Program-made: the position numbers and the translations under genes
Shown here: piece after piece, positions 43,926-45,026 of the stretch
Layout of the letters: every line of letters starts with the position of its first letter
How positions within the stretch are numbered: the stretch's first letter is position 1
Notes under the pieces: model-generated
Database searches by the model: none
Seen by the model: the letters and a program-made list of their open reading frames with translations, nothing else
What the model was told of the DNA's origin: nothing
From: Isoetes taiwanensis
Lineage: Eukaryota > Streptophyta > Lycopodiopsida > Isoetales > Isoetaceae
Direction of reading: 5' to 3'
NCBI GenBank assembly: GCA_021234155.1
Contig: JAJEKV010000020.1
Span: 692,938 to 756,937, forward strand
DNA length: 64,000 nucleotides

Positions 43926-45026
43926 AATGGCATCCTCAAGGGTATTCCTTTAGCGGATGCGGCAGCATAGTGTGTATGTCCTTGGGCATCGGGGTTACCC
44001 TCTTGGCGTGGATCGCGCGGAGGTTTCCCTCCTCGAAGAGCTGGGTGAGCTTCGGCCTCCAGCTACACCGCAACACCCTTGTGGTCGGTGATGTCACCCT
44101 ATAGTCGGTGGCGAACTCACCGCATAACCTCCCGCATGAGCCGCTCGAAGGGCGCCTTCCTAATCAGGAGATTGGTGCACTGTTGGAAGTGCTTAATCTC
44201 CCCGAAAAACTCGAGGCGTGGGGGAGTTAGGCCCATGGTGGACCTTCTTTGGCTTCTCGGGGGTGGCGGCGGCGGCGGGGAACGCTTCTTTGGTGGTCGG
44301 CCCCTCCACTCCTGTGCGTTGGGCGTTACGGCGGTACCAATCATTATACCTCGTCCCTTTGTGAGTATTCTTGTCACGCCTTGGTGGCGTCGGGAAGAGG
44401 CGCTCCTCGCGGCGAGCGATGCGCTTCGCCCGACCTTACCGCTTCTTACGCACCTTAGGTGGCTCGGGCCACTTTGGATAAGGTGGCCTTGGGTCAGGGT
44501 CCTCCTCCTGCTCCTCTTCCTCTTCAACCTCCTCTTCTACCTCCTCCCGCTGCGGTTCTTCAATAACAACGGTCTTGCGAGGCCGGTCGTTCCTTCTCTT
44601 CGTTCTTCTCTCTTGCTGCCGCATCTCCCGCTCCCGTTCCCTCTTCTTCCTAGCGGCCCTCTCTTCTGGCCACTCAGCAACCTTCTCCTTGCTCTTCTTC
44701 TTCGGCACTGAAGGGCCCGCCTCTTCCACCTGCTCTTCGACTTGCTCTTCCACCTGCTCTTCCACTTCCGTGTCTGAGTGAGGCCCAAAATGGCGGGACT
44801 CGTCAGTTCTCTGGGTGCCCGCCGACGAAGAGCTACTGCTGTTGGGCGACGTCTCCTCAGCATCGTGATAGGTTGCGTCGCTGCTGCTGGAGGGAAACTC
44901 CTCTTCCCCCTTCTTAGGTCGGAGGTGCTCCGGGATTTTCTTCGTGTGGCGTCCCGCTACTACCTGCGCCATCGAGAGCGTGGGTCGCTCGCCGAACTTC
45001 CTAGCTGTTTGTTTGGTGCGAGCCAT
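43926..45026 (-). pseudogene. Histone H3-like gene carried by element A (fossil)
   Basis: The frame opening at 45,026 starts M-ARTKQTARK, identical to residues 1-9 of mature histone H3. It includes Lys4 and Lys9 with their recognition context. It continues as a charged linker: Ser-rich, VEEQ repeats, a basic run (KKKREREREMRQQ) and an acidic run (EEEVEEEEEQEED). At 44,080-44,210 and 43,928-44,030 the minus strand reads [41 protein letters not shown] and [10 protein letters not shown]. These match H3 helices aN, a1 and a2-a3 ([43 protein letters not shown]). Normal H3 is 136 residues; the linker here is far longer, more like a CENH3 or other divergent variant. It is broken by a few interruptions. 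Confidence 0.88.

Follow-up and report, generated by a model that had tools for sequence, protein, structure and literature searches.

In the stretch of Isoetes taiwanensis DNA analysed here (the window, 64,000 nucleotides) a complete Ty3/gypsy retrotransposon, element A, carries a broken gene of the histone H3 family. The end of the H3 tail and the H3 fold are both present in sense orientation to the element, and the segment is found, and found broken, in two diverged copies of the element, A and B. The gene was likely captured from a host, and its intact product likely was a tail-extended H3 variant acting in chromatin. Taken as a whole this reading is held tentatively, with slightly less than even confidence. 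The features of both copies are listed in Table 1.

Table 1. Features of elements A and B and of their H3-like segments (window coordinates).
Feature	Position	Strand	Evidence
Element A, complete LTR retrotransposon with H3-like segment	34085..47225	-	LTR pair, TAGTT duplication
5' LTR of A, TGTGACG...CGCCACA	45596..47225	-	LTR comparison
Primer-binding site of A, TGGTATCAGAGC	45583..45594	-	Sequence inspection
Leader of A, primer site to ATG, 37% GC	45027..45582	-	A-B comparison
MARTKQTARK, exact H3 N-terminus including Lys4 and Lys9	44997..45026	-	Sequence
Charged tail extension, frame of MARTKQTARK, one in-frame stop	44201..44996	-	Sequence
Fold piece 1, alphaN end and alpha1, second frame	44120..44200	-	PDB, Pfam
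Fold piece 2, loop 1 to C-terminus, third frame with stop	43936..44118	-	PDB, Pfam
CTATAAATAG, directly after H3 segment of A	43881..43890	-	Motif count
Gag fragment of A	40611..40862	-	Retrotrans_gag E 0.03, below cut-off
Protease of A	39677..40147	-	RVP_2 E 1.4e-8
Reverse transcriptase fragment of A	38963..39328	-	RVT_1 E 1.1e-12
Integrase of A	36569..37830	-	Weak core, clear C-terminal end, sub-cut-off chromodomain-like tail
Polypurine tract of A	35733..35745	-	Directly before 3' LTR
3' LTR of A, TGTGACG...CGTCACA	34085..35732	-	LTR comparison
Element B, second copy, LTR runs off window at 64000	54712..64000	-	blastn against A
H3-like segment of B, decayed	61650..62661	-	Alignment to A
CTATAAATAG, directly after H3 segment of B	61601..61610	-	Motif count

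Element A is about 13 kb long and of the Ty3/gypsy type. It has an LTR pair, a primer site and a polypurine tract, and the target-site duplication TAGTT (34080-34084 and 47226-47230) flanks the whole of it. The primer site TGGTATCAGAGC is presumably of the tRNA-Met type, a kind common in plant elements. Over 1605 aligned bases the LTRs are 92.0% identical, with 44 gaps between them. Protease, reverse transcriptase and integrase follow each other in the order of Ty3/gypsy elements, with weak matches for gag and the integrase core (rve, E 0.012), and the C-terminus of the integrase is clearly recognizable (SH3_Tf2-1, E 1.8e-23; Ty3 Gag-Pol 7q5b in the PDB, E 1.5e-6). A reading made earlier from the sequence only had called the element a chromovirus. 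The domain order agrees with this, whereas the chromodomain itself falls short: the Chromo match at the integrase C-terminus reaches 12.2 bits at a Pfam cut-off of 25.1 (E 0.18), the match to a chromo domain in the PDB has an E of 0.87, and no chromodomain was found with Pfam among three frames of copy B. Judged from the position of this stretch and the sub-threshold matches, element A is likely a chromovirus. Chromoviruses (PMC3350952) share with A the Ty3/gypsy domain order and the chromodomain-like stretch behind the integrase end; A differs in that its chromodomain stays below the cut-off and in having an extra H3 segment upstream of gag. Between the H3 segment and gag there are another 1.5 kb (41606-43148, minus strand) with open frames of 117, 101, and 154 amino acids. 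None of these frames matches a Pfam family above cut-off, and the stretch could possibly be a second extra gene of the element.

Elsewhere in the window, a 2.1-kb segment is duplicated at 93% (8669-10787 and 24105-26252), and the frame at 8630-9094 matches the beta-tubulin-type C-terminal domain (Tubulin_C, E 3.7e-15) and is likely a tubulin pseudogene. The minus strand contains broken reverse transcriptase frames at 11636-12704 (RVT_1, E 7.5e-18 and 3.8e-6), which likely belong to a non-LTR element, and a pentatricopeptide-repeat gene with near-tandem 105-bp units at 18766-20363; like the type of the primer site, this repeat array points to a plant host. An LTR-like relic on the plus strand (26764-27425) is about 68% similar to the LTR of A in opposite orientation, and part of it is repeated at 80% in another LTR-like relic at 81-165. 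Scanning the window with Rfam and for tRNAs gave no matches.

The H3-like segment of A lies on the minus strand, in sense to the element, behind the primer site and ahead of gag. The minus-strand frame starting with MARTKQTARK that had been noticed there in the sequence-only reading is indeed present between the primer site and the weakly matching gag, and it matches H3 residues 1-9 exactly. The ATG at 45026 starts a frame of 196 codons (MARTKQTARKFGERP / MARTKQTARKFGERPTLSMAQVV) which ends at the TAA at 44438-44436. Past this stop the tail frame continues to about 44201, a second frame carries fold piece 1 at 44200-44120, and a third frame begins at 44118 with EFATDYRVTSPTT (EFATDYR...) and has its stop ending at 43936. 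With one stop in frame and two or more changes of frame, the segment thus lacks a continuous reading frame. A tail frame free of stops over 590 bases, as in A, occurred in one of 2000 mononucleotide shuffles, and the GC content of the H3 segment is 57-62%, that of its flanks 37% and 26%.

The fold motifs claimed to follow downstream were also found, in the right order and in two frames other than that of the tail. A frame-tolerant alignment of the DNA of A to H3 residues 41-135 scores 178 with 44 of 82 residues identical, compared to a mean of 26.4 (sd 4.2) and a maximum of 37 in 25 dinucleotide-shuffled versions of this stretch. When 254 overlapping 1-kb chunks from both strands of the window were scored, two overlapping ones exceeded 52 (178 and 137), and both sit at the H3 segment of A. 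Histone H3 is the best PDB match (phmmer) of each fold piece alone, with E 4.1e-6 for piece 1 and 1.2e-7 for piece 2. With the Pfam Histone profile (PF00125, cut-off 26.4 bits) piece 2 is above the cut-off (29.5 bits, E 1e-6) and piece 1 below it (23.7 bits, E 6.1e-5), and the 136-aa frame containing piece 1 reaches 20.3 bits. Searches of NCBIfam with the tail frame, the 136-aa frame, and the integrase end matched no histone family. CENP-A was ahead of H3 in a first PDB ranking, in which the alignment took in a proline-rich stretch; the fold piece alone leads to H3. A match of the tail frame to Sec16 (E 0.0068, below cut-off) falls into a low-complexity stretch and was rejected. By these similarities, the H3 tail end and the H3 fold are present in A in the right order and on one strand, in a gene that is broken.

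Copy B matches A in blastn comparisons of internal pieces at 75.4% (54712-61875) and 80.7% (62133-63251), and no 3' LTR of B was seen within the window. Its H3-like segment occupies the same place as that of A. Thus, the lineage already carried the segment when A and B diverged, the segment is not confined to the insertion of A, and the earlier suggestion that it belongs to the element family and not only to this copy is borne out for these two copies. B is more decayed than A, and the H3 frames are broken in both. B has GTG at the position of the ATG of A, and one of its frames reads NLRAIHAKR, then a stop, then LLRRIIKEYP ahead of the stop that is shared with A. This LLRRIIKEYP is closer to the end of H3 (LARRIRGERA) than the end of A itself. 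On its own B scores 51 against H3, which is not over the window background of 52. Copy B was therefore rejected as independent evidence for H3, and its weight comes from the alignment to A.

Of the regions from LTR to gag that were compared, the leader (45030-45594 in A) is best conserved between A and B with 87.0% identity, compared to 69.5% for the H3 frame and 53.4% for the next stretch. The motif TTTTAAATAG at 45115-45124 in the leader of A is retained in B, and the AT-rich leader could contain signals for packaging or priming. The motif CTATAAATAG behind the H3 segment is perfect in both copies (three matches in the window, 0.24 expected) and could possibly be a second promoter. Downstream of the H3 segment, A (43652-43719) and B (61370-61438) both have an inverted repeat of 12 nt, whose GGGTTGC/GCAACCC arms are separated by 45-46 nt.

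In the intact gene, tail, extension, and fold may have formed one protein, which the stop at 44436 makes less certain. There are 275 codons ahead of the first aligned residue of the fold in A, compared to 50 including the methionine in H3, and the tail of the H3-like frame is about 225 residues longer than that of H3. The tail of the product contains 62 lysines and arginines, and 54 aspartates and glutamates. A retains 13 of 16 H3 positions that we take to be DNA contacts or part of the H3-H3 interface, whereas F84, Q85, and C110 are changed. The chaperone site in alpha2, which the available text of PMC9145170 defines as SAVM/SAVL or AAIG, reads PTTR in A in place of SAVM, so that the usual H3 assembly factors may miss the product of A. 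As to the features of H3 membership, A has neither such a site nor an intact frame joining tail and fold. The linker which was proposed to have been inserted between tail and fold is confirmed as a long charged stretch, whose origin by insertion is less clear. It could just as well be a variable tail that has become longer, by analogy to some CENH3s and viral H3s (available text of PMC9145170).

The sequence-only reading had expected selection on the fold, and here the tests diverge. Of the 48 positions common to H3 and CENP-A, A keeps 30, and of the other 28 it keeps 10 (Fisher p 0.02); five of 76 circular shifts, the unshifted alignment included, match this result. When 13 residues that seem to be out of frame are omitted, 28 of 38 common and 10 of 25 other positions are kept (p 0.008; two of 63 shifts). 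The difference persists when plant CENH3s are added to the comparison (21/32 versus 19/44, p 0.04; without the out-of-frame residues 19/23 versus 19/40, p 0.006). A test for conservative substitutions on the fold of A was not significant (p 0.08 and 0.31), and constraint in a divergent host gene before the capture would give the same pattern of kept positions. The codon counts between A and B do not support selection. Here, codons with a single change were sorted into synonymous and replacement changes, and constraint is clear in the reverse transcriptase alone (8 synonymous, 9 replacement; 0.47 versus 0.24 expected). Little or no constraint is seen in the protease (0.24 versus 0.24), the integrase end (0.29 versus 0.25), and the frame at 37830-38204 (0.35 versus 0.25). 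In the H3-like segment, 5 synonymous codons stand against 24 replacement codons in the 590-base tail frame (0.17; expected 0.24); the corresponding counts are 6 and 10 for the remaining tail (0.38; expected 0.27), 3 and 6 for the first fold piece (0.33; expected 0.28), and 1 and 7 for the second (0.12; expected 0.29). In addition, 15 of the 18 gaps between A and B in the 590-base frame are frame-breaking. Purifying selection on the H3 frame is thus not supported by these counts, in a test that is weak because of the heavy decay after insertion and the restriction of clear constraint to the reverse transcriptase. Codon-position counts in fixed windows revealed no third-position excess in the H3 segment and no clear one in pol.

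The counts between A and B are in line with the segment being a mere passenger, an H3-family transcript that was taken up by template switching and copied along without any role while its resemblance to H3 faded. The breakage in both copies fits to this as well, and captured host genes reportedly number in the hundreds in plant LTR elements (available text of PMC3726574). However, the tail end of A is exact although 38 of the 82 aligned fold residues are changed, the changes avoid the positions common to H3 and CENP-A, the segment survived past the split of A and B, and the missing signal comes from the weak codon test. We consider a passenger the main alternative, only a little less likely than the preferred reading. 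A separate host H3-like gene that inserted into A alone would be a further possibility, and the TATA-like boxes before and after the segment and its AT-rich flanks are what a gene unit might have. This scenario was rejected, because B has the H3 segment at the same place. In addition, A is one insertion with the target-site duplication around the whole of it, and an origin of A and B from one duplicated locus is disfavoured by their differing ends and their divergence. We regard such a separate gene as extremely improbable.

The source of the capture would have been a host H3 or CENH3 gene. If it was a CENH3-type histone, the product could have been a homing protein that steered the element to centromeric or H3K9-marked chromatin, with the chromodomain-like integrase end docking on its tail. 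Six of the 25 changed residues in the fold of A match Arabidopsis or rice CENH3, where 1.35 would be expected (P 0.001 in 2000 neutral simulations), in a test that was devised after looking and is based on unverified plant sequences; none of the 25 match CENP-A. Like A, plant CENH3s have an H3 fold behind a variable tail, with some residues of alpha1 in common, and long tails are known from some CENH3s (available text of PMC9145170). The chromodomain-like match behind the integrase end would also suit a homing protein, but it is weak. In contrast, the fold of A scores highest with canonical H3 (178), followed by CENP-A (130), rice CENH3 (123), and Arabidopsis CENH3 (106). Loop 1, which in CENH3 is longer and contains a tryptophan, has the length of H3 in A as read across the frame change, has a valine at 84, and lacks the tryptophan. 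Together with the canonical N-terminus, which is exactly that of H3, this argues against plain CENH3 membership, and we consider a CENH3-type homing protein unlikely.

We prefer to see the segment as the remains of an H3-family gene that was captured from the host into a retrotransposon lineage. The sequence-only reading had proposed the capture of a host H3 gene by the element family; an H3-derived segment in a complete element and in two copies is what was found, and the capture from a host is the part that we infer. The intact product would pair with host H4 and be deposited in host chromatin, where, given the 13 kept contact and interface residues, the fold of A could replace H3 in some nucleosomes. 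Its exact ARTKQTARK end, carried by a long charged arm, would present Lys4 and Lys9 to the writers and readers of the host. Methylation of H3 at Lys9 is a main cellular means of silencing transposons. The most likely gain for the element would be that its H3K9-based silencing is loosened or diverted, and the bracovirus H4, which joins host nucleosomes and shifts host expression via its tail, could serve as a model. It is conceivable, and in this specific form we lean somewhat against it, that the element lineage encodes its own H3 variant with a nucleosome-competent fold, which rewrites the silencing chromatin or marks insertion sites for the integrase. If true, an H3 with Lys9 on the element would be a direct countermove to silencing or a self-made integration address. 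The capture of histones, to date reported from DNA viruses, would extend to retrotransposons, and some of the annotated H3-like genes in genomes may be genes of mobile elements.

The capture of genes by LTR elements is already known, and it is the histone cargo that is unusual. Among the matches listed from the open literature, none was recognizable by its title and the start of its abstract as describing a histone-bearing LTR retrotransposon. The tail frame, the 136-aa fold frame, and the integrase end have no relatives among the viral contigs, and the tail frame has none among the genome contigs, in collections that cover viruses, bacteria, and archaea. Plant LTR elements with captured genes or additional ORFs have, as in A, a host-derived or extra coding segment on the sense strand (available text of PMC7264820, PMC3726574, PMC13317346). 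What sets A apart from these is its cargo, a core histone whose tail end is exactly that of H3, and the word histone does not appear in the main text of the three papers. The word retrotransposon is likewise absent from the available text of the review on viral histones (PMC9145170), which describes single viral H3s with extended tails in a xenomavirus, the Dishui Lake phycodnavirus, and NCLDV genomes from metagenomes. Like A these have one histone, of the H3 type, and some of their tails are longer by 35 to 68 residues. However, they belong to DNA viruses and their folds are 73-87% identical to a host H3, whereas A is a retrotransposon with a fold identical at 44 of 82 positions, an extension of about 225 residues, and broken genes. 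Besides these tail-extended viral H3s, a model for the proposed working of A is CpBV-H4, the histone H4 of a bracovirus, which as a histone of a mobile element joins host nucleosomes and alters expression through its tail (available text of PMC5423620). CpBV-H4 differs from the H3 of A in being an H4 of a wasp polydnavirus with a tested function.
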